Source: Vineibacter terrae (GTDB taxonomy: Bacteria > Pseudomonadota > Alphaproteobacteria > Reyranellales > Reyranellaceae). Taken from it: 64,000 bases of DNA. Where the stretch lies: assembly GCF_008039615.1 (NCBI RefSeq), contig NZ_VDUZ01000010.1, positions 1 through 64,000 on the forward strand, written 5' to 3'. Positions 46,200 to 63,315 of this stretch are shown in pieces. The translations under genes were made by a program, and so were the position numbers. The first letter of the stretch is position 1; every line of letters begins with the position of its first letter. The notes below the pieces were generated by a model, which did no database searches, had not been told where the DNA came from, and worked only from the letters and a program-made list of their open reading frames with translations.

Positions 46200-46688
46200 A
46201 TGGCTTTCCTCGACCGTACCGCGCGCGCCTTCCTGCTGACCGAGGTGATCTCGGGCTTCGTGCTGACGCTGAAATACATGTTCAAGCCCAAGGTGACGGT
46301 GAACTACCCCTTCGAGAAGGGGCCGCTGTCGCCGCGCTTCCGGGGCGAGCATGCCTTGCGGCGCTACCCCAACGGCGAAGAACGCTGCATCGCCTGCAAG
46401 CTGTGCGAGGCCATATGCCCGGCGCTGGCCATCACCATCGAGGCCGAGCCGCGGGCCGACGGCAGCCGCCGCACCACGCGCTACGACATCGACATGACGA
46501 AGTGCATCTATTGCGGCTACTGCCAGGAATCCTGCCCGGTGGATGCGATCGTCGAGGGCCCGAACTTCGAGTTCTCGACCGAGACCCGCGAGGAGTTGAT
46601 GTACGACAAGCAGAAGCTGCTCGCCAACGGTGACCGCTGGGAGGCCGAGATCGCGGCCAACCTCGCGGCCGAGGCGCCGTACCGATGA
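46200..46688 (+). CDS. nuoI: NADH-quinone oxidoreductase subunit I
   Basis: A 162-aa ferredoxin-like subunit with two [4Fe-4S] motifs, [16 protein letters not shown] and [16 protein letters not shown]. It carries clusters N6a and N6b toward NuoB. Its stop is followed by a 129-bp palindromic element rather than directly by nuoJ. Confidence 0.98.
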
Positions 46689-46711: not shown

Positions 46712-46840
46712 CCTCCCCACGCGTCAGCGTGGGGAGGTGCCCCGAAGGGGCGGAGGGGAGCCGACGTGGTGTGTCCTGGCGAGGCACCACGTCGGGTCCC
46801 CCTCCGGCCTTCGGCCACCTCCCCCACTGCGTGGGGGAGG
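46712..46840. repeat. Palindromic element inside the nuo operon (CCTCCCCAC...GTGGGGGAGG), copy 1
   Basis: A 129-bp element between nuoI and nuoJ. The left hairpin CCTCCCCACGCGTCAGC then GTGGGGAGG; a GGTGCCCCGAAGGGGCGGA block; an inner dyad GCCGACGTGGT / ACCACGTCGG; a CTCCGGCCTTCGGCC block; and a right hairpin CCTCCCCCACTGC then GTGGGGGAGG. Its last bases GGGGGAGG end 5 nt before the nuoJ ATG at 46846 and form the only visible ribosome site. Copy 2 is at 61890-62047. Confidence 0.9.
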
Positions 46841-46845
46841 AAATC

Positions 46846-47463
46846 ATGATCCAGACCCTGGCGTTTTATGTGTTCGCCGCCGTCACGGTGGTGTCCGCCT
46901 TCATGGTGATCGCGGCGCGCAATCCCGTGCATTCGGTGCTTTACCTGATCCTGGCGTTCTTCAACTCGGCTGCCCTGTTCCTGCTGATGGGCGCCGAGTT
47001 CATCGCCATGATCCTGGTGATCGTCTATGTCGGCGCCGTGGCAGTGCTGTTCCTGTTCGTCGTCATGATGCTCGACATCAACATCGCCGAGCTGCGCCAG
47101 GGCTTCCTGAAGTACCTGCCGATCGGCGCCGCCGTCGGCACGGCGTTGTTCGCCGAGCTGCTGCTGGTGCTGGGCGTGTGGACCACGTCGCCGATCGCCA
47201 ACGAAATGCTGCGCGCCAAGGCGCCGGACCTGGCCAGGATGTCCAACACCCAGGCGCTGGGCCAGCTGATCTATACCGACTACCTGTTCCTGTTCCAGGC
47301 CGCGGGCATGGTGCTGCTGGTGGCCATGATCGGCGCCATCGTGCTGACCCTGCGCACCCGGCCGGGCGTGCGCCGCCAGCGCATCGCCGACCAGATCGGA
47401 CGGCGCCGCGAGGAGGCCGTGGTGCTGGTCAAGGCCGGCGTGGGCGAGGGGGTGTCGTCATGA
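46846..47463 (+). CDS. nuoJ: NADH-quinone oxidoreductase subunit J
   Basis: A 205-aa membrane subunit with five helices. [20 protein letters not shown] and the pi-bulge helix region [17 protein letters not shown] are diagnostic. The ATG at 46846 is chosen by family start ([11 protein letters not shown]). Its ribosome site GGGGGAGG is the terminus of the upstream repeat. Frame-open sequence further 5' runs through the repeat and is not NuoJ. Confidence 0.97.
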
Positions 47464-47768
47464 CCATCGGGCTGGCGCATTACCTGACCGTCGGTGCCAT
47501 CCTCTTCACGCTCGGCATCTTCGGCATCTTCCTGAACCGCAAGAACGTCATCGTCATCCTGATGTCGGTCGAGCTCATGCTGCTGGCCGTCAACATCAAC
47601 CTGGTGGCGTTCTCGGCCCATCTGGGCGACCTGGTCGGCCAGGTGTTCGCGATGTTCGTGCTGACCGTGGCCGCCGCCGAGGCGGCGATCGGGCTCGCAA
47701 TCCTGGTCGTGTACTTCCGGAACCGCGGCACCATCGCCGTCGAAGAAATCAACCTGATGAAAGGCTGA
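47460..47768 (+). CDS. nuoK: NADH-quinone oxidoreductase subunit K
   Basis: 102 aa, three helices. [20 protein letters not shown] then NINLVAFS carries the conserved glutamates of the proton path, and [19 protein letters not shown] the second. The ATG overlaps the nuoJ stop by 4 nt (ATGA). Confidence 0.98.
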
Positions 47769-47797
47769 GGCCGGCTCGCCGGCGCTCCGACGGACCC

Positions 47798-49765
47798 ATG
47801 GAATTCCTCGTCAAAGCCATCGTTTTCCTGCCGCTGTTCGCGGCCCTGATCGCCGGCTTCGCCGGTCGGGCGATCGGCGACAAGGGCGCCCAGTGGGTCA
47901 CCACCCTGGCGCTGATCGCCAGCGCCGTGCTGTCCTGGATCGTGTTCTTCAAGGTCGGCTTCGATGGCGCCGGCGGCACCTACCGCATCGCCACCTGGAT
48001 CGTGTCGGGCACCTTCGATGGCGCCTGGTCGGTGCGGGTCGACACCCTGACCGCCGTGATGCTGATCGTGGTCACCACGGTCTCGGCGATGGTCCACCTC
48101 TATTCCATCGGCTACATGGCCGAGGATCCCAGCATCCCGCGGTTCATGGCCTATCTGAGCCTGTTCACCTTCGCGATGCTGATGCTGGTGACGGCCGACA
48201 ACCTGGTGCAGCTCTTCTTCGGCTGGGAAGGCGTGGGCCTGGCGTCCTACCTGCTGATCGGCTTCTGGTACGACCGCCCGTCGGCCAACGCCGCCGCCAT
48301 CAAGGCGTTCCTGGTCAACCGCGTCGGCGATTTCGGCTTCGCGCTGGGCATCTTCGCCGTCTACATGATGACCGGCTCGGTGCAGTTCGACGCCATCTTC
48401 AAGCTCGGGCCGGAGCTGGCGAAGCAGAGCTTCATGTTCCTCGGCTACGAGGTCCCGGCGCTGACCACCATCTGCATCCTGCTGTTCATCGGCGCCTGCG
48501 GGAAGTCGGCGCAGCTGGGCCTGCACACCTGGCTGCCGGACGCCATGGAAGGCCCGACCCCGGTGTCGGCCCTGATCCATGCCGCCACGATGGTGACCGC
48601 GGGCGTGTTCATGGTCGCGCGCCTGTCGCCGCTGTTCGAGCTCTCGCCCACGGCCCTGGCCGTGGTCACGGTGGTGGGCGCCTCGACCGCGTTCTTCGCC
48701 GCCACCATCGGGCTGACCCAGTGGGACATCAAGCGGGTGGTGGCGTATTCCACCTGCAGCCAGCTGGGCTACATGTTCTTCGCCTGCGGCGTCGGCGCCT
48801 ACGGCGCCGGCATCTTCCACCTCATGACGCACGCCTTCTTCAAGGCGCTGCTGTTCCTTGGCTCGGGCTCGGTGATCCACGCCATGCACCACGAGCAGGA
48901 CATGCGGCACATGGGCGGCCTGAAGGACAAGATCCGCCAGACCCATGCGCTGATGTGGATCGGCACCCTGTCGCTGGCCGGGATCGGCATCCCGTTCATC
49001 CTGGGCACCGGCATCGGCTTCGCCGGCTTCCACTCCAAGGACATCATCCTGGAGGCGGCGTGGGGGGCGCATTCCGGCGTCGGCTTCTACGCCTTCTGGC
49101 TGGGCATCGCCGGCGCCTTCATGACGGCGTTCTATTCCTGCCGCCTGATGTTCCTCACCTTCTACGGCCAGCCGCACGACCGTCACCACTACGAGCACGC
49201 CCATGAATCGCCGGCGGTGATGCTGGTGCCGCTCTACGTCCTGGCGGCGGGTGCCGTGGTGGCGGGCATCGCCGGCTACAGCATCTTCGTGGGCCACGGC
49301 TGGGAAGGCTTCTGGCGCGGCGCCATCGCCATGGAGTCGAGCAAGGAGGCGCTGCACCACGCGCACGAGGCGCCGTGGCTGGTCAAGCTGCTGCCGCTGG
49401 TCATGGCAGTGGCCGGCATCCTGCTGTCATGGTGGTTCTATGTCGGCTCCAAGGCCAACCTGCCGCAGCTGGTGAGCGCCACCTTCGCGCCGATCTATCG
49501 CTTGTTCTACAACAAGTGGTACTTCGACGAGCTGTACGACTTCCTGTTCGTGCGGCCGGCCTGGTGGATCGGCCGCCAGTTCTGGAAGAAGGGCGACATC
49601 GGCATCATCGACGGCGTCGGTCCCGACGGGCTGGCCGCCGGCGCCAACCGCATGTCGGGCATCCTGAGCCGGGTGCAGAGCGGCTATCTCTATCACTACG
49701 CATTCGCCATGCTGATCGGCGTCGCCGTGCTGGTCAGCTGGTACATGCTCTCGCACGGGCGCTAG
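47798..49765 (+). CDS. nuoL: NADH-quinone oxidoreductase subunit L
   Basis: A 655-aa antiporter-like proton-pumping subunit with about 16 helices and the long lateral helix at the C-terminal end. Conserved [40 protein letters not shown] (proton channel) and the [19 protein letters not shown] helix are present. 29 nt behind nuoK. Confidence 0.98.
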
Positions 49766-49768
49766 TTC

Positions 49769-51286
49769 ATGTCTTCCTGGCCGATCCTGTCGCTCGTCAC
49801 CTTCCTGCCGCTCGTGGGCGCGGCGTGGATCCTGGTCGTCTGCCGCGAGGACGAGACGGGCGCCAACAATGCCCGTCACGCCGCGCTGTGGACGTCGCTG
49901 ATCACCTTCATCGTGTCCCTGGCGCTGTGGGCCAAGTTCGACCCGCGCGCTGCAGGCTTCCAGTTCGAGGAGCGGCTGGAGTGGGTGCCGGCCTACGGCA
50001 TCAGCTACCACATGGGCATCGACGGCATCTCGATGTTCTTCGTGCTGCTGTCGACCTTCCTGACGCCGCTCTGCGTGCTGGCCAGCTGGACCGCGATCGA
50101 GAAGCGCGTGCGCGAGTACATGGTCGCCTTCCTGGTCCTCGAGACCTTGATGGTGGGCATGTTCTGCGCGCTCGACTTCGTGGTCTTCTACCTGTTCTTC
50201 GAAGGCGTGCTGATCCCGATGTTCTTGATCATCGGGGTGTGGGGCGGCAAGGACCGCGTCTACGCCGCCTTCAAGTTCTTCCTCTACACGCTGGCCGGCT
50301 CGGTGCTGATGCTGCTGGCGATCATCGCCATCTACTATCAGGTCGGCAACACCGACATCGTCGAGGCGATGAACTTCAAGAAGCTCACCTTCGAGTGGCA
50401 GTTCTGGCTGTGGCTGGCCTTCTTCGCCTCGTTCGCCGTCAAGGTGCCGATGTGGCCGGTCCACACCTGGCTGCCCGACGCGCACGTGCAGGCGCCGACG
50501 GCGGGCTCGGTGATCCTGGCCGGCGTGCTGCTGAAGATGGGCGCCTACGGCTTCCTGCGCTTCTCCCTGCCCATCATGCCGCTGGCGTCGGAGTATTTCG
50601 CGCCGCTGGTGTTCGGCATGTCCTGCATCGCCGTGATCTACACCTCGCTGGTGGCGCTGGTGCAGCAGGACATGAAGAAGCTGATCGCGTACTCGTCGGT
50701 GGCGCATATGGGCTTCGTCACCATCGGCATCTTCGTGGTCAACGTGCAGGGCGTGCAGGGCGCCATCTTCCAGATGCTGAGCCACGGCGTGGTGTCGGCG
50801 GCGTTGTTCCTCTGCGTCGGCGTCGTCTACGACCGCCTGCACACGCGCGAGATCGCCGACTACGGCGGGCTGGCCGACAACATGCCGCGCTACGCCCTGG
50901 TGTTCATGGTCTTCACCATGGCCAGCGTCGGCCTGCCGGGGCTGTCGGGCTTCGTCGGCGAGTTCCTGGTGCTGACGGGCGCCTTCAAGGCCAACACCTG
51001 GGTGGGCGTGCTGGCCGCGACCGGCATGATCCTGGGCGCCGCCTACGCGCTGTGGCTCTACCGCAAGGTGGTGTTCGGCACCATCACGCGCGACGCGGTG
51101 CGCGCCATGACCGACATGAACATGCGCGAGGTGGCGGTGTTCGCGCCCTTGGTGCTGGTCACTCTGTGGATGGGCATCTACCCATCCTCATTCCTCGACA
51201 TGATGGACGCTTCCGTGGGCAAGCTGATCGCCGATTACGACGCTGCCCTCAAGGCGGCCAAGGCGACCGCGATGCTGGGCCGGTGA
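49769..51286 (+). CDS. nuoM: NADH-quinone oxidoreductase subunit M
   Basis: A 505-aa antiporter-like subunit. [20 protein letters not shown], the [20 protein letters not shown] helix with the key Glu, and [20 protein letters not shown] identify NuoM/ND4. Three nt behind nuoL. Confidence 0.98.
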
Positions 51287-51290
51287 TGGC

Positions 51291-52736
51291 ATGACGACTG
51301 GATTGGACAACTGGACCCTGGCGGCGCCGGAGATTTTCCTGGCCGTCGCCGCGATGGCTCTGCTCCTGATCGGGGCCTTCCGCGGCACCAAGGGCGCTGA
51401 CCTGGTATCGTGGCTGAGCGTCGCCAGCCTCGCCGTTGCCATCTTTCTGGTGCTGCGGCTGGAGCACGGCACGGCTTTCCACGACCTGTTCCTGGTCGAC
51501 GCCTTCACCAAGGCGATGAAGGTGCTGTCGCTGCTGGGGTCGGGGATAGCCGTGGTGATGTCGCGCGGCTACTTCCTGCGCGCCGGCGCCTGGCGCTTCG
51601 AGTTCCCGGTGCTCGCCGTGCTGGCGACGCTGGGCATGCTGATCATGATCTCGGCCAACGACCTCATGACGCTCTATCTCGGCCTCGAGATGCAGTCGCT
51701 GGCGCTCTACGTCATGGCGGCGTTCCAGCGCGACAGCGAGCGCTCGACCGAGGCCGGCCTGAAGTATTTCGTGCTGAGCTCGGTGGCGTCCGGCATGCTG
51801 CTGTACGGCATCTCGCTCGTGTACGGATTTGCCGGCACGACCAGCTTTCCCAGCCTGGCGCGCGGCTTCCTGGCCGGCGAGGTGTCGACCGGCGTCGTGG
51901 TCGGCCTGGTGTTCGTGCTGGCCGGGCTGGTGTTCAAGGTGTCCGCGGTGCCGTTCCATATGTGGACGCCGGACGTCTATGAGGGCGCGCCGACACCGGT
52001 GACGGCGCTGTTCTCCGTGGCGCCCAAGATCGCGGCGCTGTCGCTGATCGTCTCGGTCGTGATGGGGCCGTTCCGGCCGCTGCTGCTGCAGTGGCAGCAG
52101 ATCATGATCGCGGTCGCCGTCCTGTCGACGGTCTGGGGCGCCATCGCCGCCCTGCGCCAGGAGAACATCAAGCGCCTGATGGCCTACTCGTCGATCGGCC
52201 ACATGGGCTACGTGCTGCTGGGCCTGGCTGCCGGCACGGAGGAGGGCGTGCGCTCGGTGGTGATCTACATGATCATCTACCTGGCCACCAATGTCGGCAC
52301 CTTCGCCGTCATCCTCTCCATGCGCCGCAAGGGGGAGATGGTCGAGCGCATCTCCGATCTGGCCGGCCTGTCCCAGCGGCAACCGATGATGGCCGCGGCC
52401 CTGCTGCTGTTCATGTTCTCCATGGCCGGCATTCCGCCGATGGCCGGCTTCTTCGCCAAGCTCAACGTCTTCATCGCCGCCATAAATGCCAGCCTCTACA
52501 TCCCGGCGGCGATCGCCGTGCTGGCCTCCGTGGTGGGTGCCTACTACTATCTGCGCATCGTGAAGGTGATGTACTTCGATGCTCCGGCGCCGGTCTTCGA
52601 CCGGCCGGTGGAGCGGGACATGGCCGTCGTGATGCTGGCCGCGGCGCTGTTCGTCTTCCCGGTCTTCCCGGTCTTCCAGACGCCGTTCCTGAACGGCGCC
52701 CAGACCGCCGCCAAGACGTTCTTCTCCGGGAAGTGA
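51291..52736 (+). CDS. nuoN: NADH-quinone oxidoreductase subunit N
   Basis: A 481-aa antiporter-like subunit with about 14 helices. Motifs are [40 protein letters not shown] and [20 protein letters not shown]. Last nuo gene, four nt behind nuoM. A repeat pair separates it from birA. Confidence 0.98.
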
Positions 52737-52739
52737 GTG

Positions 52740-52824
52740 CTTCATGGTGAGCTTGTCGAACCATGAAGCAGGTCGCACCACGGTTCGTGCGCCGCCTTCA
52801 TGGTTCGACAAGCTCACCATGAAG
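52740..52824. repeat. Inverted pair of the CTTCATGGT hairpin repeat
   Basis: CTTCATGGTGAGCTTGTCGA then ACCATGAAG at 52740-52768, and its reverse complement at 52796-52824, separated by 27 bp. Each unit is itself a hairpin, so the pair is a large dyad of 85 bp. It begins 4 bp after the nuoN stop. A third copy is at 32340. Confidence 0.9.
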
Positions 52825-52854
52825 GCTTCTTAGTCGGTTGCCGGGGATGCCGGT

Positions 52855-53613
52855 ATGAACTTTCTCGTTCTGCCGCCCGGCTGGACGGCCGTCGTCTTCG
52901 AGACGATCGGCAGCACCAATGACGAGGCGTTGCGGCGTGCCGAGGCCGGCGCGCCCGAAGGCACGGTCATCGTGTCGCGCCAGCAGGAGGGCGGCCGCGG
53001 CCGGCGGGGCCGCACCTGGACGTCGCCACCCGGCAATGCCTACAGCTCGACCATCATCCGTCCGCGCTGCGTGCCCGAGCGCGCGGCACAGCTGGGGTTC
53101 GTGACCGCGCTGGCGGTGTGCGACGCAGCCGCCGCCGGCCTGCCGGGCGAACGTGCGATCCGCTTGAAATGGCCCAACGACGTGCTGGTCGACGGCGCCA
53201 AGATCTCCGGCATCCTGCTGGAGTCGGCGATGGCGACCGACGGCAGCGTCGGGCATGTGGTGATCGGCACCGGCATTAATGTCGCCGTGCCGCCGCCGGC
53301 CGGCGTCGCGACCTACGCCGCCGCCTGCCTGCGCGACCTCGGCGACCGGCGCGATGCGCCTGAGGTTCTGCACGCCTATCTGGCGGCGCTGGCGGCGCGG
53401 CTGGCGCAGTGGCGGCAGGGCTTCGGCGGCACCCGCGCCGACTGGCTGGCGCGCGCCGCCTGGCTGGGCGAGCGTGTGGCGGTTTCGCAGGGAGACACCC
53501 GCGTCGAAGGGCGTTTCGCCGGCCTTGACGCCGATGGGGCGCTGCTGCTGGAACCATCCGATGGCCCGCCGCGCCGGATCGTCTCGGGCGAAGTTTTCCG
53601 GCCGGTGGGGTAG
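52855..53613 (+). CDS. birA: Biotin--[acetyl-CoA carboxylase] ligase
   Basis: A 252-aa biotin protein ligase without the N-terminal DNA-binding domain of E. coli BirA, so a class I enzyme without repressor role. The biotinyl-AMP loop GRGRRGRTW (47-55), the KWPNDVLVDGAKISGILLE segment and a small C-terminal beta domain are visible. Position behind nuoN and before coaX is typical of alphaproteobacteria. Confidence 0.93.
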   Translation: MNFLVLPPGWTAVVFETIGSTNDEALRRAEAGAPEGTVIVSRQQEGGRGRRGRTWTSPPGNAYSSTIIRPRCVPERAAQLGFVTALAVCDAAAAGLPGERAIRLKWPNDVLVDGAKISGILLESAMATDGSVGHVVIGTGINVAVPPPAGVATYAAACLRDLGDRRDAPEVLHAYLAALAARLAQWRQGFGGTRADWLARAAWLGERVAVSQGDTRVEGRFAGLDADGALLLEPSDGPPRRIVSGEVFRPVG

Positions 53614-53633
53614 GCTCTTGCCAGGAGCGTTCA

Positions 53634-54410
53634 ATGCTGCTCGCGCTTGATATCGGCAACACCAACAGCAAGTTCGCCTTGTTCGACGGCGAGACGCTGG
53701 TGGCGCAATGGCGGCTGCGCACCGAGGGCAAGCGCACGGCCGACGAGTATGCCGTGTGGCTCAGCCAGCTGATGACGCTCAAGGGCTTCGAGATGAGCCA
53801 GGTGCGCGGCGTCATCATCGCCTCGGTGGTGCCGGCCGTGCTCTTCAATCTGCGGCGGCTGTGCGAGACCTATTTCAACGTCGAGCCGCTGGTCGTGGGC
53901 GATCCCGACGTCAAGCTCGGCATCAAGGTGCTGATCGACCGGCCGCAGGACGCCGGCGCCGATCGGCTGGTCGATGCCATCGCCGGCTACAAGAAGTACG
54001 GCGGGCCGCTGATCGTGATCGATTTCGGCAGCGGCACCACCTTCGAGGTCGTCGATCGCGACGGCAATTTCTGCGGCGGCGCGATCGCGCCGGGCATCGA
54101 GCTGTCGATCGAGGCCTTCTACCTGATGACGGCGCGCCTGCCGCGCATCCGTGTCGAGCGGCCCGGCGGCGTGATCGGCAAGTCGACGGTCGGCGCCATG
54201 CAGTCCGGCATCTTCTGGGGCTATGTCGGCCTGATCGAAAACCTCGTCACACGTATCCAGGCCGAGTTCGGCGAGCCGATGAAGGTCATCGCCACCGGCG
54301 GGTTGGCCCAGGTGTTCGAAGCCGAGACCAAGGTCATCCAGGCCATCGAGCCGGACCTGACCCTGTACGGCCTGCTCGAGATCTGGCGCCGCAACCGGCC
54401 GATCGCATGA
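53634..54410 (+). CDS. coaX: Type III pantothenate kinase
   Basis: 258 aa. The ASKHA-fold phosphate motif LALDIGNTNSKFALF (Asp6), GADRLVDAIAGY (108 on) and IDFGSGTTFEVV (Asp130) mark CoaX. It phosphorylates pantothenate, the first step of CoA synthesis, and needs a monovalent cation. 20 nt behind birA, so co-transcribed. Confidence 0.96.
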   Translation: MLLALDIGNTNSKFALFDGETLVAQWRLRTEGKRTADEYAVWLSQLMTLKGFEMSQVRGVIIASVVPAVLFNLRRLCETYFNVEPLVVGDPDVKLGIKVLIDRPQDAGADRLVDAIAGYKKYGGPLIVIDFGSGTTFEVVDRDGNFCGGAIAPGIELSIEAFYLMTARLPRIRVERPGGVIGKSTVGAMQSGIFWGYVGLIENLVTRIQAEFGEPMKVIATGGLAQVFEAETKVIQAIEPDLTLYGLLEIWRRNRPIA

Positions 54411-54411
54411 A

Positions 54412-54523
54412 GCCGGGAGCGCGCCACTCCAGTGGCGCACCGGCCCGAAGGGCCGGCTCATCCAACGCTGCTCATGATCCGACGCTGCGCGCCGGTGCGC
54501 CACTGGAGTGGCGCGCTCCCGGC
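54412..54523. repeat. Palindromic element GCCGGGAGCGCGCCACT, copy 1
   Basis: A 112-bp inverted repeat. GCCGGGAGCGCGCCACTCC / GGAGTGGCGCGCTCCCGGC form 19-bp outer arms, with GTGGCGCACCGGC / GCCGGTGCGCCAC inside and a GCCCGAAGGGC hairpin. It starts 2 bp after the coaX stop and ends 17 bp before rnj, so it lies inside a presumed operon. Copy 2 is at 56657. Confidence 0.9.
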
Positions 54524-54540
54524 GTCGAGAGGTGATCTGA

Positions 54541-56199
54541 ATGACCACGCCCGGCGACGAGCTGCTCTTCCTGCCGCTGGGCGGCGCCGGCGAGATTGGG
54601 ATGAACCTCAATCTCTACGGCTGCCGCGGCAAGTGGCTGATGCTCGACCTGGGCGTGACCTTCGCCGACGAATCGACGCCCGGGCTCGACGTGCTGATGC
54701 CGGATCCGGCCTTCATCGTCGAGCGCAAGGACGACCTTGTCGGCATCGTGCTCACACACGCCCACGAGGATCATCTCGGCGCCGTGCCCGACCTGTGGCC
54801 GCTGCTGCGCTGCCCGGTCTACGCCACGCCGTTCGCCGCCTCGGTGCTGGCCCGCAAGCTGCACGAAGCGGGGCTGCAGGACGAGGTGCCGGTCACCGTC
54901 ATACCCCTGGGCGGCTCCCTGTCGCTGCCGCCTTTCGAGCTGGAGTTCGTCACCATGACGCACTCCATTCCCGAGCCCAATGCCGTCGCCATCCGCACGC
55001 CGCACGGCGTCGTGCTGCATACCGGCGACTGGAAGATCGATCCCGAGCCGTTGATCGGCGACGTGACCGACGAGGCCGCCCTGCGCCGGCTGGGCACCGA
55101 TGGCGTGCTGGCCATGGTCTGCGACTCGACCAACGTCTTCGTGCCGGGCGAGGCCGGTTCCGAAGCCGAGGTGCGCGACAAGCTGGTCGAGGTGATCCGG
55201 CATCGTGCCGGGCTGGTGGCGGTCACGTGCTTCGCCTCCAACCTGGCGCGCGTCGAGAGCGTGGCCAAGGCCGCCGTCGCGGCCGATCGCCAGCCCGTGC
55301 TTGTGGGGCGGGCGCTGCATCGCATGGTCGAGGCGGCGCAGGAGAACGGCTACCTGACCGATTTTCCCGCGACGGTGGCCGAGCGCGACGCCGGCTGGCT
55401 GCCGCGCGACAAGGTGTGCCTGATCTGCACCGGCAGCCAGGGCGAGCCGCGGGCGGCGCTGGCGCGGCTGGCATCGGGCGACAATCGCGATATCGGCCTG
55501 CAGGCCGGCGATACGGTGGTGTTCTCCTCGCGCGTCATTCCGGGCAACGAGAAGTCGATCGGCCGCCTGCAGAACCAGCTTGCGGTCCTGGGCGTCGAGA
55601 TCGTCACCGACCGCGACGCCGACATCCATGTCTCGGGCCATCCGGCGCGCGACGAGCTGACCCGGCTCTACCAGTGGGTGCGCCCGCGCATCGCCGTGCC
55701 GGTGCATGGCGAGCGCCGCCACATGGTCGAGCATGCGGCGCTGGCGCAGGCCTGCCAGGTGCCGACCGCGATCGTGGCGCCCAATGGCAGCCTTGTGCGT
55801 CTGGCGCCGGGCACGGCCGAGGTCATCGACCACGTCCCGACCGGCCGGCTGGCGCGTGACGGCACGCGGCTGGTGGCCGTCGACGACATGGGCCTGCGCG
55901 ACCGGCGCAAGATGCTGTGGAACGGCGCCGCCGTGGCCATGCTGGTCCTGGACCGCACTGGCCGGCTGCTGGCTGCGCCCAAGCTGACGGTGCAGGGCCT
56001 GGCGGGTGACGCCGCCACGGTCGACGAGGCGCTGGCGGCCGGTGTCGACGCCCTGCGGGCCTCGGTGGCCGACCTTTCCGATAGCGAGGCGCGCGACGAC
56101 TCCACGGTGGCCGAGGCGGCGCGGCGGGCGGTGCGCCGTGTCTTCAAGTCGCGGTTCGACAAGAAGCCGTTGACGGACGTGCAGGTGGTCCGCATCTAG
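54541..56199 (+). CDS. rnj: Ribonuclease J
   Basis: A 552-aa metallo-beta-lactamase/beta-CASP nuclease. The zinc motif LTHAHEDHLGA (His73, His75, Asp77, His78), then an FVTMTHSIPEPNAVAIRTPH segment and a C-terminal HVSGHPARDEL motif. RNase J has 5'-exonuclease and endonuclease activity in RNA maturation and decay and is common in alphaproteobacteria. GAGAGGTG precedes the ATG at 54541, after the repeat. Confidence 0.96.
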   Translation: MTTPGDELLFLPLGGAGEIGMNLNLYGCRGKWLMLDLGVTFADESTPGLDVLMPDPAFIVERKDDLVGIVLTHAHEDHLGAVPDLWPLLRCPVYATPFAASVLARKLHEAGLQDEVPVTVIPLGGSLSLPPFELEFVTMTHSIPEPNAVAIRTPHGVVLHTGDWKIDPEPLIGDVTDEAALRRLGTDGVLAMVCDSTNVFVPGEAGSEAEVRDKLVEVIRHRAGLVAVTCFASNLARVESVAKAAVAADRQPVLVGRALHRMVEAAQENGYLTDFPATVAERDAGWLPRDKVCLICTGSQGEPRAALARLASGDNRDIGLQAGDTVVFSSRVIPGNEKSIGRLQNQLAVLGVEIVTDRDADIHVSGHPARDELTRLYQWVRPRIAVPVHGERRHMVEHAALAQACQVPTAIVAPNGSLVRLAPGTAEVIDHVPTGRLARDGTRLVAVDDMGLRDRRKMLWNGAAVAMLVLDRTGRLLAAPKLTVQGLAGDAATVDEALAAGVDALRASVADLSDSEARDDSTVAEAARRAVRRVFKSRFDKKPLTDVQVVRI

Positions 56200-56243
56200 T
56201 GGCCAGACCCGCCAGCCCACGGCAATGCGAAGGAGTGGAAGTG

Positions 56244-56648
56244 ATGATCGGCCGGCTCAACCACATCGCCATTGCCGTCCCCGACCTGGCGAAGGCCTCG
56301 GCGCTCTATCGCGACACCATGGGCGCCAAGGTCAGCGCGCCGGTGCCGCAGCCCGCCCATGGCGTCACCGTGGTGTTCGTGGAGCTGCCCAACACCAAGA
56401 TCGAGCTGCTGCATCCGCTGGGCGAGAAATCCCCGATCGCCAACTTCCTGACCCGCAACGCCGATGGCGGCATCCATCACGTTTGTTATGAGGTCGAGGA
56501 TATCTACCAGGCCCGTGACCATTTGAAGGCGCAGGGTGCGCGGGTCCTGGGCGATGGCGAGCCCAAGATCGGCGCCCATGACAAGCCGGTGCTGTTCCTG
56601 CACCCCAAGGACTTCAACGGCACCCTGATCGAGATCGAGCAGGCGTAA
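56244..56648 (+). CDS. mce: Methylmalonyl-CoA epimerase
   Basis: A 134-aa single VOC/glyoxalase-fold protein. LNHIAIAVPDL (metal His7), VVFVELPNTKIELLHPLGE, GGIHHVCYEVEDI with the second His, and a C-terminal FNGTLIEIEQ with the metal Glu match MCE. It interconverts (R)- and (S)-methylmalonyl-CoA in propionate metabolism. The ATG at 56244 follows AAGGAG. Confidence 0.94.
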   Translation: MIGRLNHIAIAVPDLAKASALYRDTMGAKVSAPVPQPAHGVTVVFVELPNTKIELLHPLGEKSPIANFLTRNADGGIHHVCYEVEDIYQARDHLKAQGARVLGDGEPKIGAHDKPVLFLHPKDFNGTLIEIEQA

Positions 56649-56656
56649 TCTTCCTT

Positions 56657-56790
56657 GCCGGGAGCGCGCCACTGCGGACGGGCAAGCCCGCCCTGAAGTG
56701 GCGCACCGGCGCGCAGCGCCGGCTCATGCCTTCCGCTGGCCATGACCCGGCTCTTCGGGCCGGTGCGCCACCGAGTGGCGCGCTCCCGGC
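56657..56790. repeat. Palindromic element GCCGGGAGCGCGCCACT, copy 2
   Basis: A 134-bp relative of the element at 54412: GCCGGGAGCGCGCCACT at the left, GAGTGGCGCGCTCCCGGC at the right, and internal GTGGCGCACCGGC / GCCGGTGCGCCAC arms. The left arm carries a GCGGACGGGCAAGCCCGCCC hairpin not present in copy 1. It lies between mce and the DUF1467 gene. Confidence 0.88.
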
Positions 56791-56803
56791 CGAAAGGTCG
56801 TGC

Positions 56804-57043
56804 ATGAGCTGGTACACCGCTTTTCTGGTCTTCGCCGTCATCTGGTGGACGGTGATCTTCGCTATCCTGCCGCTAGGCGTGCGGCGGGCCGAGGATGCCG
56901 TGCGCGGCGCCGACCGCGGGGCGCCGCAGCGGCCGGACCTCAAGCCCAAGGCGCTGATCACGACTGCGATCACGGCCGTGTTCTGGGTGCTCTGGTACGT
57001 TGTATGGGTGCTCGACGTCTTCGCCTTGCGCGCTGGTGGGTAG
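56804..57043 (+). CDS. DUF1467 family membrane protein
   Basis: A 79-aa protein with two membrane helices (about 3-22 and 50-72). WWTVIFAILPLGVR and the AVFWVLWYVVWVLDVFALR end fit DUF1467. Function unknown; the gene is nearly always found between mce and proS in alphaproteobacteria. Its start follows repeat copy 2 by 13 nt, with an AAAGGT weak ribosome site. Confidence 0.85.
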   Translation: MSWYTAFLVFAVIWWTVIFAILPLGVRRAEDAVRGADRGAPQRPDLKPKALITTAITAVFWVLWYVVWVLDVFALRAGG

Positions 57044-57049
57044 CCCAAA

Positions 57050-57249
57050 AAACAAACGGTAAACCCCGGAGGATTTACCGTTCGTGCACACAACGGCGCT
57101 GTTTCCCTGAGCACGGTCTTTGTGCCGCGCTTGCCCGTTCCCGGGCGTTTTTCCTCCCTTAAACTCGGGCCCTGGGCCTGAGCCCCAACCTACCCGACGC
57201 GCGTTTCTAGCCGAACCGCGCTTGCCTGCCTAGGAATTTTTCTTGCGAG
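57050..57249 (-). ncRNA. Candidate small RNA (about 200 nt), not identified
   Basis: The 302-bp gap between the DUF1467 gene and the permease has no credible ORF but has gene-like signals on the minus strand: a TTGACG -35 and AATAAG -10 at 57256-57285, and at the far end a strong terminator (57051-57082). Between them lie several local hairpins, including CTCAGGCCCAGGGCCCGAG (57163-57181) and GCCCGGGAACGGGC, and GGCAAGCGCGG occurs twice. It could be a free sRNA or a processed permease 3'UTR. I could not match it to 6S, SRP, RNase P or tmRNA. A plus-strand GCCCG/CGGGC hairpin with T5 near 57132-57152 may end the DUF1467 transcript instead. Confidence 0.35.
57051..57082 (-). terminator. Rho-independent terminator (minus strand)
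   Basis: On the minus strand AACGGTAAA and TTTACCGTT form a 9-bp stem with a 10-nt loop, followed by TGTTTTTTGGG. It ends either the permease transcript or the small RNA proposed at 57050-57249. Confidence 0.8.
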
Positions 57250-57255
57250 TGGATA

Positions 57256-57285
57256 CTTATTTTTGAAATCCCAGCAGCGCGTCAA
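57256..57285 (-). promoter_or_regulatory. Candidate promoter of the proposed small RNA
   Basis: TTGACG (57280-57285) and AATAAG (57256-57261) on the minus strand, 18-nt spacing, in an AT-rich patch unlike the surrounding GC-rich DNA. It lies 60 bp after the permease stop. Confidence 0.4.
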
Positions 57286-57345
57286 GATCGTTCGACGTCA
57301 TACCATTTCGCTGATCTGCAACGAAATCGCCGTGCGGAAGCGAGT

Positions 57346-58638
57346 CTAGCCGATGACGGCGAACTTGATCACGAACAGCACAGCAAGGATGCCGACGGCG
57401 GGATGCACATCGCCGATGCAGCCTGCTGCGATTTTGATCGCCGTGTAGGTGATGAATCCGAATGCAATGCCTTCGGCGATCGAGAAGGTGAAGGGCATTG
57501 CAAGCGCCGTCACCATCGCAGGCGCTGCTTCCGTCACATCGTTCCATTCGATCTCAACCAATCCGTGCGCCATCAGGCACGCGACGTAGAGCAGCGCCGG
57601 CGCTGTCGCCCATGGCGGCACCGACGCCGCCAGCGGCGAGAAGAACAGCGCCAGCAGGAACAGGATCGCCACGACCACCGCGGTGAGGCCGGTGCGGCCG
57701 CCGGCGTTGATGCCCGATGCGCTCTCGATGTAGCTGGTGGTGGTCGAGGTGCCGACGGCGGCGCCGATCATGGCGGCCGATGAATCGGCGATCAGCGCCC
57801 GGCCCAGGCGCGGCACGGTGCCGTCCTTCTGCAGGAAGCCGGCGCGATGCGCGAGCGCGATCAGCGTGCCCGAATTGTCGAACAGATCGACGAACAGGAA
57901 CGCGAAGATCACGGTCACGAGGCCGACATTGAGCGCGCCCGCGAGATCCATCTGCAGGAACACCGGCGCGATGCTGGGCGGCGTCGAGACCACGCCTGTG
58001 AACGCGCTGGCGCCCAGCAGGGCCGACGCGACGGTGACCGCCAGCACGCCGATGATCACACCGCCCGGCACCTTCCTGTATTCGAGCGCCGCGATCAGGA
58101 CGAAGCCCAGGGCGGCGAGGATCGCAGGCCAGCTCTTGAGATCGCCGGCCGTGATCAGGGTCGCGGGGTGCGCGACGACGATCTTGGCGCCTTGCAGCGC
58201 GATCAGCGCCAGGAACAGCCCGATGCCGGCTGCGATCGCCATCTTCAGCGACTTGGGAATGGCGTTCACGATCCACTCGCGCACCGGCAGCACGCTCAGG
58301 ATCAGGAAGATGATGCCGGATATGAACACGCACCCAAGCGCCACCTGCCACGTGTAGTTCATGCCCAGCACGACGCCGAAGGCGAAGTAGGCGTTGAGCC
58401 CCATGCCCGGCGCCAGCGCGATCGGGTAGTTGGCCAGGAAGGCCATGAGCAGGGTGCCGATCGCCGCCGCGACGCAGGTGGCGACGAACACCGCGTCGCG
58501 CGGCATGCCTGCCTTGGACAGGATGTCGGGATTGACAAAGATGATGTAGGCCATGGTCAGGAACGTGGTGATCCCGGCCAGCACCTCGGTGCGCACTGTC
58601 GTGCCGTTCTCCTGCAGCTTGAAGAGCGTTTCGAGCAT
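57346..58638 (-). CDS. NCS2-family (AzgA-type) purine permease
   Basis: A 430-aa transporter with about 12-14 helices. The N-terminus RTEVLAGITTFLTMAYIIFV and NPDILSKAGMPRDAVFVATC, the loop ALAPGMGLNAYFAFGVVLG, and GTSTTTSYIESASGINAGGR are the AzgA/PbuG signatures. Members carry adenine, guanine or hypoxanthine with protons. The ATG at 58638 follows GGGGA; a longer frame-open N-terminus has no membrane or family features. It is opposite to its neighbours and splits the DUF1467-proS neighbourhood. Confidence 0.92.
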   Translation of the reverse strand: MLETLFKLQENGTTVRTEVLAGITTFLTMAYIIFVNPDILSKAGMPRDAVFVATCVAAAIGTLLMAFLANYPIALAPGMGLNAYFAFGVVLGMNYTWQVALGCVFISGIIFLILSVLPVREWIVNAIPKSLKMAIAAGIGLFLALIALQGAKIVVAHPATLITAGDLKSWPAILAALGFVLIAALEYRKVPGGVIIGVLAVTVASALLGASAFTGVVSTPPSIAPVFLQMDLAGALNVGLVTVIFAFLFVDLFDNSGTLIALAHRAGFLQKDGTVPRLGRALIADSSAAMIGAAVGTSTTTSYIESASGINAGGRTGLTAVVVAILFLLALFFSPLAASVPPWATAPALLYVACLMAHGLVEIEWNDVTEAAPAMVTALAMPFTFSIAEGIAFGFITYTAIKIAAGCIGDVHPAVGILAVLFVIKFAVIG

Positions 58639-58740
58639 GTTGTTTTCCCCGCCACTGCGATCGAGCCGCAGGGATTGTGCGAAAAGCCCCCAAGCCCAAC
58701 CAGCCGCCGCCGCACGATTCCTGGGGAAAACGCCACGTCT

Positions 58741-58987
58741 CCTCTCCCGCAAGCGGGAGCATCGCGAAGCGATGGGAAGGTGAGGGGCCAAGGACCGGGT
58801 GCTTCGCCTTGAGCCCTCACCCGCCGGGCGCTGCGCGCCCGTCAACCTCTCCCACCGTCATCCTGAGCGCCAGCGAGGGATCTCCCGCGAAAGACGCACG
58901 GTGCGCCATTCGCGGGAGATCCCTCGCTGGCGCTCGGGATGACGGTGAAGATGTGTTGGATACCGCAGCCCGCCAGCGGGAGAGGTG
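58741..58987. repeat. CCTCTCCCGC palindromic element interrupted by a second element
   Basis: The left hairpin CCTCTCCCGCAAGCGGGAG and CATCGCGAAGCGATG, then CCCTCACCCGCCGGGCG and CAACCTCTCCCAC, then the inserted GTCATCC element (58857-58943), then CCCGCCAGCGGGAGAGG at 58970-58987. It occupies most of the 443-bp gap 58639-59081 between divergent permease and proS genes; no gene lies there. Confidence 0.6.
58857..58943. repeat. 87-bp GTCATCCTGAG palindromic element, nested
   Basis: GTCATCCTGAGCGCCAGCGA then GGGATCTCCCGCG on the left, CGCGGGAGATCCCTCG then CTGGCGCTCGGGATGAC on the right, centre with GGTGCGCCATT. Nearly the same as 37769-37854. It interrupts the CCTCTCCC element. Confidence 0.88.
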
Positions 58988-58998
58988 AAGCCCCCCGT

Positions 58999-59027
58999 TT
59001 GCCTTCCGCGCGGCCGTTGCCTAAATT
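58999..59027 (+). promoter_or_regulatory. Candidate promoter for proS
   Basis: TTGCCT (58999-59004) and TAAATT (59022-59027), 17-nt spacing, about 50 nt before the proS ATG. Confidence 0.4.
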
Positions 59028-59081
59028 CGCGCGTCTTTTGCAGCCAGCCTGGCTGCTCTCGAGCCACAGGTCCCGAACACG

Positions 59082-60401
59082 ATGCGCCTCAGCCAGTATT
59101 TCCTGCCCACGCTCCGCGAGAATCCGGCCGAGGCCCAGATCGTGTCGCATCGCCTGATGCTGCGCGCCGGACTGATCCGCCAGCAGGCGGCCGGGATCTA
59201 CGCCTGGCTGCCGCTGGGCTACCGCGTGCTGCGCAACATCGAGCGCATCGTGCGCGAGGAGCAGGATGCCTCGGGCGCGCAGGAAGTGTTGATGCCGACC
59301 ATCCAGTCGGCCGACCTCTGGCGTGAGAGCGGCCGCTACGACGCCTATGGCCCGGAAATGCTGCGCATCAAGGACCGCCACGACCGCGAGATGCTCTACG
59401 GACCGACCAACGAGGAGATGATCACCACCATCTTCCGTGACGGCGTGAAGAGCTACCGCGACCTGCCGCTGAACCTCTATCACATCCAGTGGAAATTCCG
59501 CGACGAGGTGCGGCCGCGTTTCGGCGTGATGCGCGGGCGCGAGTTCCTGATGAAGGACAACTACTCGTTCGACATCGACAAGGCCGGCGCGACGCGCTCC
59601 TACAACAGGATGTTCGTCGCCTACCTGCGCACCTTCGCGCGCATGGGCCTGAAGGCGATCCCGATGCGGGCCGACACCGGTCCGATCGGCGGTGACCTCA
59701 GCCACGAGTTCATCATCCTGGCCGAGACGGGCGAAAGCGCGGTGTTCTGCGACAGGGACCTGGTCGACAAGGACATCCTGGGCCGCGCCATCGACTACGC
59801 CGGCGACCTGCAGCCGCTGGTCAACGAATGGACGGCGCAGTACGCCGCCACCGACGAGATGCACGACGCGGCCAGGTTCGAGACCGAGGTGCCGGCCGGG
59901 CGGCGTCTTGCGGCGCGCGGCATTGAGGTCGGCCACATCTTCTATTTCGGCACCAAGTATTCGGCGCCGATGAACGCGGTGGTGTCGGGCCCCAAGGGCG
60001 AGCCGATCACGGTCGAGATGGGCTCCTACGGCATCGGCGTGTCGCGGCTGGCCGGCGCCATCATCGAGGCCAGCCATGACGACGCCGGCATCATCTGGCC
60101 GGAGTCGGTGGCCCCGTTCAGGATCGGGCTGCTGAACCTGAAGCCGGATGACGGCGCCGTGTCCAAGGCGTGCAACGACCTCTATGCGACGCTGCGGGCC
60201 AAGGGCGTCGAGGTGCTCCACGACGACCGCGACCTGCGGCCCGGCGCGAAGTTCGCCGACATGGACCTGATCGGCCTGCCGTGGCAGGTGATCATCGGGC
60301 CCAAGGGGCTGGCCGCGGGCAAGGTCGAGGTGAAGAACCGCGCGACAGGCGCCCGCTCGGAGCTGGCGCTGGATCAGGTCGCCGCCACGTTCGCCGCATG
60401 A
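59082..60401 (+). CDS. proS: Prolyl-tRNA synthetase (short bacterial form)
   Basis: A 439-aa class II synthetase. [20 protein letters not shown] start, [12 protein letters not shown], the class II motif 2 [20 protein letters not shown] and [14 protein letters not shown] are present. It lacks the roughly 180-residue editing insertion of E. coli ProS, as is usual in alphaproteobacteria, so Ala-tRNA-Pro editing would need a separate ProX-like protein. The ATG at 59082 gives the standard N-terminus. Confidence 0.97.
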
Positions 60402-60407
60402 GGGTTG

Positions 60408-60535
60408 TTTCGGACCGCGCGCAGCCTGCCCTGAGCCCGCCGAAGGGTCCACGCGCGCATCGGCGCGGCAGCGCCGCTAATTCGCTCTCCGCTTCGCTGC
60501 GAGCGATTGCGCGCGTGGACGCGTGCGGTCCGAAA
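60408..60535. repeat. Palindromic element TTTCGGACCGC...GCGGTCCGAAA
   Basis: A 128-bp inverted repeat between proS and the first lolC/E gene. Outer arms TTTCGGACCGC / GCGGTCCGAAA, inner arms GTCCACGCGCGC / GCGCGCGTGGAC. It starts 6 bp after the proS stop and ends 5 bp before the next ATG, leaving that gene without a standard ribosome site. Confidence 0.85.
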
Positions 60536-60540
60536 TAGCC

Positions 60541-61872
60541 ATGGCTTTCAGCGCTGTCGAACGCCTGATCTCGCTGCGCTACCTGAGGGCGCGGCGGGAA
60601 GAGGGCTTCATTTCGATCATCGCCTGGTTCTCGCTGATCGGCATCGCCCTGGGCGTCGGCACGCTGATCGTCGTGATGGCGGTGATGAACGGCTTTCGTG
60701 TCGAGCTGCTCAATCAGATCACGGCGGTCAACGGCCACCTCGGCGTGACATCGGGCCGGGGGCCGATCACCGACTACGAGCCGTTGCTGGACAAGATCCG
60801 GGCCGTGCCGGGCGTGGCCAACGCCAATGCTGTGGTCGAAGGCCAGGCCGTGGTGGTGTCGCCCGATGGCGTGCGCGGCGTCATGGTGCGCGGCATGCCT
60901 CTGCCGGCCCTGGAGGCGCGGGGCCCGATCGCGCGGTCGCTCGAGCCGGCGGTGGTGGCCACGCGCTCGGGCCGGCCGCGCGCCGACGTCTGCGCCCCGC
61001 GCGACGGCGCGCCTGCGGCGATCGGCGCGCGCGGCCGGCTGGCCGATCTCGCCGACGACGGCAGCGTGGCGATGGGCGTGCGGCTGGCAGAGACATTGGG
61101 CGTGCAGGTCGGCAATGACATCGAGCTCGTCTCGCCGCGCACCATCGACACGCCGGTCGGCCGGGTGCCGCGCAAGATCAGGCTGCGTGTCGCCGCGATC
61201 TTCGAGGTCGGCATGTTCGACTACGACTCGAACTTCATCTACATGCCGATCCAGAAGGCGCAGGACTTCTTCGACATGCCCGGCCAGATCTCGCTGATCG
61301 AGGTCTTCGCCGCCGATTCGGCCAGCTACCGCCGGCTGGCGGGGCCGATATCGCAGGCCCTGGACTGGAAGGCCTATGCCTTCGACTGGATCGAGGCCAA
61401 CGCCGGCTTCTTCAACACCGTGCAGATCCAGACCAACGTGATGTTTCTGGTCCTGACCATGATCATCGTTGTCGCCGCCTTCAACATCGTGTCCAGCCTG
61501 ATGATGCTGGTGCGCACCAAGGGACCCGACATCGCCATCCTGCGCACGATGGGCGCCTCGCGCGGGCAGATCCTGCGCATCTTCCTGATCGACGGCATGG
61601 GCATCGGCCTGGTCGGGGTCGGCATCGGCGTGGTGCTGGGGCTGCTGTTCGTGCGCAACATCGAGGCCATCAGGCAGGGCCTGCAGTCGACGTTCAGCGT
61701 CTGCCTGTTCGACCCCCAGCTCTACCTGCTGTCCGAGCTGCCGGCGCGCATCTCCGCCGGCGAGGTGACGTCGATCGCGGTGATGGCGCTGGTCTTCGCC
61801 TTCTTCGCCACGCTCTATCCGGCCTGGGCCGCGACCCGCCTCGATCCCCTGGAGGGCCTGCGCCGTGGGTAG
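60541..61872 (+). CDS. lolC: Lipoprotein-releasing ABC transporter permease, first copy (LolC/LolE type)
   Basis: A 443-aa MacB/FtsX-fold permease with one N-terminal helix (about 25-50), a large periplasmic domain, and three C-terminal helices (about 305-335, 350-385 and 400-425). ISLRYLRARREEGFISIIAW and GVGTLIVVMAVMNGF match LolC/E. Compared with the second copy it has about 25 extra residues (RPRADVCAPRDG region). With LolD it extracts lipoproteins from the inner membrane for LolA. The ATG at 60541 immediately follows a repeat and has no clear ribosome site. Confidence 0.9.
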   Translation: MAFSAVERLISLRYLRARREEGFISIIAWFSLIGIALGVGTLIVVMAVMNGFRVELLNQITAVNGHLGVTSGRGPITDYEPLLDKIRAVPGVANANAVVEGQAVVVSPDGVRGVMVRGMPLPALEARGPIARSLEPAVVATRSGRPRADVCAPRDGAPAAIGARGRLADLADDGSVAMGVRLAETLGVQVGNDIELVSPRTIDTPVGRVPRKIRLRVAAIFEVGMFDYDSNFIYMPIQKAQDFFDMPGQISLIEVFAADSASYRRLAGPISQALDWKAYAFDWIEANAGFFNTVQIQTNVMFLVLTMIIVVAAFNIVSSLMMLVRTKGPDIAILRTMGASRGQILRIFLIDGMGIGLVGVGIGVVLGLLFVRNIEAIRQGLQSTFSVCLFDPQLYLLSELPARISAGEVTSIAVMALVFAFFATLYPAWAATRLDPLEGLRRG

Positions 61873-61889
61873 ACATGTCGGAAAAGTAT

Positions 61890-62047
61890 CCTCCCCAGCG
61901 AAGCTGGGGAGGTGCCCCGATACGACGTTTCGACGCGAAGCGTCGAAACGTCGGTGGGCGGAGGGGAGCCGACGTGGTCTTCGCAAGCCGGCACCACGTG
62001 GGTTCCCCCTCCGGCCTTCGGCCACCTCCCCCACGTTGTGGGGGAGG
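61890..62047. repeat. Palindromic element inside the lol operon, copy 2 of the CCTCCCC type
   Basis: 158 bp with the same blocks as the nuo copy: CCTCCCCAGC then GCTGGGGAGG, GGTGCCCCGA, GGCGGAGGGGAGCCGACGTG, CACCACGTGGG, CCCCCTCCGGCCTTCGGCC and CCTCCCCCACGTTGTGGG then GGAGG. It is longer because a 31-bp perfect palindrome (61923-61953) interrupts the GGTGCCCC block. Its last bases GGGGGAGG end 8 nt before the ATG at 62056. Confidence 0.9.
61923..61953. repeat. 31-bp perfect palindrome nested in the lol-operon element
   Basis: CGACGTTTCGACG and CGTCGAAACGTCG are perfect 13-bp arms around CGAAG. The nuo-operon copy has only AAGGGGCGG at this point, so the palindrome looks like an insertion into the larger element. 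Confidence 0.8.
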
Positions 62048-62055: not shown

Positions 62056-63315
62056 ATGACCCTCTTCCCGACTCGTCCCGAGCGCATGATCGCGCTGCGC
62101 TACCTGCGCACCCGCGAGCAGGACGGCTTCATCTCCTTCATCGCCATCTTTTCCCTGATCGGCGTGGCGCTGGGTGTGGCCACGCTGATCGTGGTGCTGG
62201 CCGTCATGAACGGCTTCCGCGGCGAGCTCTACAACCGCATCCTGGGCGTGAACGGCCACATCCAGGTGGCGCCTGAGAAAGGCGTGATCAGTGATTGGGA
62301 GCCGCTGGTGACACGGCTGGCCGCCATTCCCGGGGTGACCGCGGTGACGCCGGTGGCCGAGCGGCAGACGATGGTCACGGTCGAGGGGCTGACGCGGGCC
62401 ATCACGCTTCGCGGCATCCGTCCGGAGGATCTGGAGAGCCGCGAGATCATCGCCAGGAACCTCACCGGCAACTCGTTGGCCGGGTTCACCGACAAGCCCA
62501 ATCCCATCGTGCTGGGCGATCGCCTGCGCCAGGCGCTGGGGGTGCGCTTCGGCGACCAGATCCGTGTCACGGCTTATGTGCGCGACGACAAGGGAGCGGT
62601 GCAGACGCGCCCGGTGACCTACGAGGTGATCGCAAGCTTCCTGACCCGGCGCATGGAGTTCGACCTGAACCTGGCGTTCATCCCGCTCGACCTGTTCCAG
62701 GAGGATTTCGGCCTGGCCGAGGATGCCGTGACCGCGATCGACATCATGATCGCCGATCCCGCCCGCGCCGCCGACATGGTGCCCCTGGTGCGCCAGCGGC
62801 TGGAGCGCGACGGGCTGCGGGTCAGCGACTGGCGCACGCGCAATGCACGGCTGGTGGGCGCCCTGGAGCTGGAACGCGTCATGATGTTCCTGATCCTGGG
62901 GCTGATCGTGCTGGTGGCCTCGATGAACGTGATCGCGAGCTTCACCATGCTGGTGCGCACCAAGGGTAGGGGCATCGCCATCCTGCGCACCATGGGCGCC
63001 ACCCGCGGCGGTGTCGTGCGCATCTTCTTCCTGGCCAGCGCCAGCGTTGGCGTCGTGGGCACGCTGGTAGGCGCTGCGCTTGGCCTGCTGATCTGCGCCA
63101 ACATGAAGCCGCTGGGGACGTTCCTCACTGCCGTCACCGGTGGACCGATGCGCAGCGGCGAGGTCGATTTCCTGGCCTCGCTGCCGGTGCGCGTCGACAT
63201 GCGCGAGGTCGCCGCGATCCTGATCCTGGCGCTGGCGCTGTCGCTGGCCGCCGCCATCTATCCGGCCCGCCGCGCGGCGCGGCTCGATCCGGTCGAGGCC
63301 TTGCGTTATGAGTGA
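62056..63315 (+). CDS. lolE: Lipoprotein-releasing ABC transporter permease, second copy (LolC/LolE type)
   Basis: A 419-aa permease of the same fold as its neighbour. [59 protein letters not shown], and a C-terminal [20 protein letters not shown] match LolC/E. The two copies align along their whole length, so they arose by duplication or represent LolC plus LolE; calling this one lolE is by analogy. The ATG at 62056 uses a ribosome site lying in the end of the preceding repeat. It overlaps lolD by 8 nt. Confidence 0.9.

Follow-up and report, generated by a model that had tools for sequence, protein, structure and literature searches.

A REP-like palindromic repeat lying behind stop codons in Vineibacter terrae appears to provide the Shine-Dalgarno sequence of downstream operon genes

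The first 64,000 nucleotides of contig NZ_VDUZ01000010.1 of Vineibacter terrae (G000:C10:1-64000 in our numbering, hereafter the window; the genome, G000, measures 8.76 Mb in 135 contigs) hold two copies of a palindromic repeat, termed F1, one between nuoI and nuoJ and one between two LolC/E-type permease genes. At both junctions, the outer tip of the repeat takes the place of the Shine-Dalgarno (SD) sequence of the next gene, and the same is seen at other F1 copies in the genome and in a sister species. As a feature of the sequence the replacement is real; it seems to be a side effect, which the cell tolerates, of the repeat inserting after stop codons. Our preferred reading, to which we assign a rough probability of 0.6, is that F1 is a mobile repeat resembling the REP (repetitive extragenic palindromic)/BIME type which inserted behind stop codons, that SD replacement in tight gaps is tolerated, and that the tip is presumably used.

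Both window copies (Table 1) terminate in GGGGGAGG. Ahead of nuoJ the junction reads GTGGGGGAGG, AAATC and then ATG at 46846, and ahead of the second permease gene it reads GTGGGGGAGG, GGATCCCC and then ATG at 62056, leaving spacers of 5 and 8 nt. The SD match of nuoJ is -10.9 kcal/mol when the element is included and absent from the 5-nt spacer alone, and that of the gene at 62056 is -11.1 kcal/mol with the element and -3.1 with the spacer alone. A preliminary description of the window had proposed that the two copies end at these distances from the next start with no other SD present, which is confirmed at our threshold of -4 kcal/mol, an arbitrary value. The 20-nt F1 core has three matches in the window with up to three mismatches (0.02 expected), of which the two exact ones fall in these copies, and both copies fold far below shuffled sequences. 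A scan of the window against Rfam at the gathering threshold returned only four tRNAs.

Genome-wide, the core has 118 matches with up to three mismatches, compared with none for a reversed control. F1 is about 126 nt long, non-coding and nearly its own reverse complement, and most copies are matched by its profile model on both strands. A terminal hairpin CCTCCCC..GGGGAGG is followed by a short inner hairpin and a central palindrome and then by the mirror image, and therefore both ends read GGGGAGG outward on the exiting strand. Since GGGGAGG is present at ends that face starts as well as at ends that do not, the motif belongs to F1 and was not acquired from the target. Among 61 genomes, the core (up to two mismatches) was found in 27, all from the same family (27 of 37, G000 included), and in none of the 24 outside it.

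Sequence analyzed around F1 copies amounted to 777 kb (117 copies) and later to 1.185 Mb in all, with core positions taken from the matches listed, about 100 of the 118. The working set comprises the 111 copies with both ends recognized; 6 of the 117 lacked a recognizable end and were left out. Gene starts came from a codon-usage gene finder trained on this genome. The F1 tip is a strong match to the assumed anti-SD sequence CCUCCUUU; one candidate 16S 3' end obtained by a single pattern match was rejected, its context not being that of 16S.

Eighty-four F1 ends face starts, and 32 of them lie within 13 nt. The spacer lacks an SD match in 25 of these 32, and spacer and element together contain one in all 32. 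Among the ends located 17-30 nt from a start, the native SD is retained in 24 of 30. The sister species G002 (71 F1 copies, 51 start-facing ends) repeats this pattern, as the spacer SD is missing in 9 of 10 cases at 4-13 nt and present in 14 of 16 at 17-30 nt. The expectation that SD supply recurs across the genome is thus upheld, 25 of the 84 start-facing ends lying within 13 nt of a start with no other SD. A control repeat of the same genome, F3 (GTCATCC, ends not SD-like), was sampled both near F1 copies and near matches to its own pattern; of its 75 start-facing ends, only 1 comes within 13 nt (Fisher 1e-9). The F3 pattern has approximately 480 matches per strand in the genome, and F3 copies (GTCATCC..GGATGAC) were also seen in the window at 21344-21490, 24134-24273, 37767-37856 and 58853-58947.

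Table 1. Coordinates of the two F1 copies in the window, their terminal hairpins and the genes next to them
Feature	Position	Strand	Remarks
F1 palindromic element	46712..46840	+	129 nt, in the nuoI-nuoJ gap; repeat pair, fold z -7.3, profile match on both strands
Terminal hairpin CCTCCCCCAC..GTGGGGGAGG	46818..46840	+	3' arm GGAGG is the putative SD of nuoJ
nuoI	46200..46688	+	NCBIfam NuoI equivalog; stop 23 nt upstream of the F1 copy
nuoJ	46846..47463	+	NCBIfam NuoJ equivalog; begins 5 nt past the F1 copy; start common to sister species
F1 palindromic element	61890..62047	+	158 nt including a nested inverted repeat; fold z -8.8
Terminal hairpin CCTCCCCCAC..GTGGGGGAGG	62025..62047	+	Putative SD source for the lolC/E-type gene at 62056
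First LolC/E-type permease gene	60541..61872	+	TIGR02212 above cut-off; stop 17 nt upstream of the F1 copy
Second LolC/E-type permease gene	62056..63315	+	TIGR02212 above cut-off; begins 8 nt past the F1 copy

The copy between the permease genes is longer because a second inverted repeat is nested inside it; this 31-32-nt repeat, CGACGTTTCGACGC..GCGTCGAAACGTCG (window ~61923-61953), was found in 6 of the 111 F1 copies. With regard to gene names, nuoI and nuoJ hold at equivalog cut-offs, but the name lolE given to the gene at 62056 does not hold as such. Both permease genes pass the cut-off of the lolCE model (TIGR02212), so that "lolE" denotes the latter member of a tandem LolC/E-type pair. 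The gene after it has LolD as its best model, with a score below the cut-off. Close to their starts, the two tandem genes (60541-63315) have a stretch of 184 nt in common with 75% identity; this lolD-like gene follows them, and matches in G002 and in a further sister species, G003, suggest the same tandem pair there.

A position bias of F1 had been anticipated with respect to the start codon. The bias that was found is strongest toward the preceding stop codon. Of the 132 F1 ends that face gene 3' ends, 87 lie 0-15 nt past the stop codon, 17 lie at 16-30 nt, 23 lie farther away and 5 overlap the gene. In the 76 tandem copies the median distance is 10 nt to the stop and 19 nt to the start (p 2.6e-4); the stop is nearer, and therefore the start codon is not the attractor, and attraction of F1 to it was rejected. 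The remaining copies are mostly convergent (28 of 111) and face no start, while 2 are divergent and a further 5 overlap called genes at one end or at both (at both in 1 of 111). An orientation bias, also expected, was not found, GGGGAGG being present at either end: where an end lies no more than 13 nt from a start, it is of one kind in 16 cases and of the other in 12 (p 0.57). The gaps of tandem copies are short, with 39 of 76 measuring 21-40 nt without the element. At 5 of the 132 ends facing gene ends, the upstream frame enters the element, which apparently contributes the C-terminal residues of the upstream protein.

The junctions at which F1 lies close to a start are also used by other repeats. 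We followed 32 tandem junctions of G000 with F1 within 14 nt of a start, including both window junctions, into three sister species (G001, G002 and G003). Both neighbors were found at 66 orthologous junctions, of which 25 are empty (<60 nt), 8 contain F1-type elements, 7 F2, 9 F3, 5 F4, 1 F5, and 11 other inserts of at least 60 nt. An insert is present in 23 of 31 junctions in G002, 13 of 15 in G001 and 5 of 20 in G003. Eighteen of the 23 G002 inserts are recognizable F1-F5 palindromes, 14 of these 18 not F1, and two gaps exceed 500 nt; one G002 junction scored as empty (element 18) holds an F1 copy into which the upstream frame extends. The control was a random draw of 30 junctions from 194 that are tandem, tight and element-free; 26 could be traced in G002 (two of these rows share one locus), where 25 are still empty with a nearly equal gap and 1 contains F3. 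F1 junctions and controls thus differ in the presence of inserts (Fisher 3e-8; 8e-6 when only the 12 controls whose gaps measure at least 9 nt are counted), orthologues having been accepted at 75% identity for F1 junctions and 60% for controls. These hot operon junctions are reused across sister species, mostly by different palindrome families, which amounts to repeat-family turnover. Permissive sites and repeat-by-repeat replacement are both compatible with this pattern. An F2 palindrome (CCTTCCCC..GGGGAAGG kind) was noticed in the window at 28366-28496, and some F2 hybrids share one end with F1. F2 was dropped as a dose-response family, having only 7 usable copies, and the first F2 pattern was discarded with 17 of its 23 matches inside genes.

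The nuoJ junction can be compared with relatives of the same genus in which the nuoI-nuoJ gap lacks the full element and measures 28 nt (G003) and 16 nt (G002). There, nuoJ is preceded by GGGGGAGA-type SD sequences of -9.4 kcal/mol in G003 and -8.4 in G002, and its start is at the same place, alignments beginning at residue 1 and residue 2, respectively. The preliminary description had considered that relatives without the element might start nuoJ elsewhere; in these two genomes the start is unchanged. In a rough look at 80 more distant nuoJ loci, in which the alignment does not always reach residue 1 and a few loci whose match position differs are misindexed, a start-type codon was present at the first base inspected in 37, of which 28 have an SD match. 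Two of the 80 belong to unrelated lineages, L216 to an Erythrobacter metagenome-assembled genome (MAG) and L219 to a MAG of the Sphingomonadaceae. In these, nuoJ is preceded at 6 and 9 nt, respectively, by CCTCCCC..GGGGAGG palindromes of another kind, located just upstream of base 1501 of the loci.

F1 resembles the REP, BIME and REPIN elements of enterobacteria, pseudomonads and sphingomonads in being palindromic, many-copy and intergenic, in occupying tandem and convergent gaps and in lying near the upstream 3' end. According to the accessible portions of two reports, REP-type repeats occupy tandem and convergent gaps near gene 3' ends (PMC3733652, PMC12306157). F1 agrees with this in its copy number and near absence from gene interiors, and also in its nearness to gene 3' ends and rarity in divergent gaps. 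It is unlike REP in its length of ~126 nt and its outer ends, CCTCC/GGAGG, and in often replacing the SD of the next gene. The nearest described case, as far as the accessible text of PMC3733652 goes, is that the ends of GTAG REPs often give the flanking gene its stop codon, a parallel to SD supply by F1. In the F1 copies read, neither a GTAG nor a CGTC tag was present at the outer ends; this comparison with REP does not extend to the inner hairpins. An F1 hairpin was found within the ~1.5-kb flanks of none of 30 Y1_Tnp loci (22 from the same family), and hence no link to REP-associated tyrosine transposases (RAYT, Y1) as mobilizers of F1 was found. The two Y1 transposase genes of the genome itself (L031, L032) are, by eye, flanked by other inverted repeats, unlike F1.

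Short size, non-coding sequence, terminal inverted repeats and genome-wide spread also liken F1 to miniature inverted-repeat transposable elements (MITEs) such as RUP, Correia and ERIC, these being general MITE features in the accessible part of PMC2229807. A flank repeat of at least 4 nt indicating target-site duplication was found at none of the 111 copies (4.1 expected from shuffled pairs), and no parent transposase was found in a search that covered Y1 transposases only. The Br-REP elements of Bradyrhizobium, also alphaproteobacterial, have several stem-loops, lie in 3' regions and vary strongly in abundance between related species, as described in the accessible part of PMC5082802, and F1 is like them in these respects. 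Their consensus sequences differ from that of F1, and the same part of that paper gives them no SD role. Because it has no GTAG/CGTC outer tag, Y1 link or target duplication, we file F1 as REP-like and not as REP. No description of a palindromic repeat supplying an SD was recognized in the open-access literature searched, mostly at the level of title listings.

Under our preferred reading, F1, whose ends happen to be SD-like, would insert shortly after the stop codon where neighboring genes run in tandem or converge, and hardly ever where they diverge. In short stop-to-start gaps, insertion would often sever the native SD, and the F1 tip would fall into the SD window. Such copies would be tolerated, and would persist if the next gene is left with a start signal that works. 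For nuoJ, the LolC/E-type gene and roughly two dozen further genes studied, translation presumably begins from the F1 GGAGG, whose use probably competes with the terminal hairpin. Ribosomes likely use the tip, and selection, rather than insertion preference, may shape its spacing. Across the two genomes combined (G000 and G002), spacing density per nt is 1.0 at 0-3 nt, 4.0 at 4-13, 1.3 at 14-16 and 4.6 at 17-25. Compared with uniform placement within the gap, 2 of the 60 tandem copies used (of 77) lie at 0-3 nt (9.1 expected), 27 at 4-13 (21.6), 1 at 14-16 (5.9) and 22 at 17-25 (13.5; Kolmogorov-Smirnov [KS] p 0.02). Several observations weigh against this reading. The dip at 14-16 nt was noticed post hoc, and G002 alone, with 3 copies there, has no dip. 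An SD is present in 23% of 4-13-nt spacers and in 27% of native leaders of equal length, and in 81% and 71%, respectively, at 14-30 nt; in this comparison, which concerns SD fractions and no means, spacers resemble native leaders cut to equal length and therefore bear no mark of selection. Starts are computed and not curated, and the anti-SD is assumed. In G002, at loci chosen for their F1 copies or as orthologous junctions, F4 (GGTCC ends) has 12 start-facing ends, 8 of them at 4-14 nt (5 without an SD match at -4 kcal/mol and 3 with a weak one), while 4 of 11 F3 ends are no more than 13 nt away. A repeat can therefore lie near a start without having an SD tip. In the V. terrae genome, F4 has 0 of 5 start-facing ends at 4-14 nt.

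These observations bear directly on whether the SD tip is an adaptation, evolved or maintained because F1 can then settle in operon gaps whichever way round while the next gene is still translated; the preliminary description had suggested that F1 may be kept because its insertion leaves translation intact. The suggestion is supported in part, as the 0-3 and 14-16 nt classes are depleted in the two genomes combined and both ends carry the motif. Moreover, 58 of 76 tandem F1 copies lie in gaps of up to 50 nt compared with 8 of 51 for F3, and within such gaps F1 is within 13 nt of the start in 31 of 58, while 7 of the 8 F3 copies stay at least 19 nt away with the SD left in place. However, families without an SD tip come equally close to starts in G002, and the stronger end is not preferred: in hybrid tandem copies with one weaker end (GGGAAGG), the stronger end faces the start in 6 and the weaker in 9 (6 and 8 without the one copy in which both ends are weak; one further copy has an unusual end). 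The CCTCCCC..GGGGAGG hairpin also occurs in 14 of 16 genomes tried, and its ends fall within 13 nt of a start in 2 of 13 rows for the loci of that survey (rows partly repeat), 1 of 6 rows in a Caulobacteraceae MAG, 0 of 4 rows in G072/G073 and 0 of 19 start-facing ends in Azospirillum oryzae. A general SD role for this hairpin was therefore rejected on the A. oryzae count, and as the hairpin is found there without that role, the motif exists for other reasons. Overall, we hold adaptation to be rather unlikely, and evolution of the tip for SD supply is not supported.

It had further been proposed that folding hides the SD and so tunes translation, which would make F1 a portable switch turned on by conditional unfolding. 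Consistent with masking, folding predictions place the tip in the stem of the terminal hairpin, the GGAGG having a predicted unpaired probability of 0.057 at 23 SD-serving ends and 0.279 at 60 native sites (p 5e-7). Across those 23 ends, though, the predicted hairpin averages -18.3 kcal/mol, against -19.2 for 138 ends that do not face starts, and it is not significantly weaker where it serves an SD (p 0.15 unpaired, p 0.20 in a paired test). It is equally strong at non-serving ends and so belongs to the repeat as such, and by eye no sensor part has been added. The hairpin may matter in vivo, but it is present by prediction, nothing in these comparisons shows tuning, and regulation by it is not supported; a switch thus seems very improbable to us. 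Alternatively, the downstream genes may not depend on the F1 GGAGG, ribosomes continuing from the upstream gene or starting without an SD. Some 25% of the 423 genes used as controls are without an SD match at -4 kcal/mol, F4-adjacent genes of G002 also lack one, and at several element-free orthologous junctions the genes overlap by 4 nt. An element of 120-160 nt between stop and start would nevertheless disfavor simple coupling, and the spacing pattern in the two genomes combined also argues against independence, which we consider quite improbable. Native GGAGG lies 5-8 nt from the start in 79 of 103 cases, and the F1 tip, mostly at 4-13 nt, is spaced more broadly (KS p 0.0045).

A bolder version, unlikely as a whole, is that a selfish palindrome with an outward SD on both strands settles in operon gaps either way round and captures the next start signal, at hot junctions with family turnover between sister species, and that the captured gene can then be translated only as far as the RNA of the hairpin unfolds. 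As for the preferred reading, if ribosomes use the tips, about two dozen of the genes studied, nuoJ included, would receive their start signal from a mobile repeat, which would illustrate clearly how repeats can rewrite the translation signals of operon genes. The hot junctions allow the same site to be compared across species with different families or none, and may thereby inform on how repeats choose sites and survive in them.

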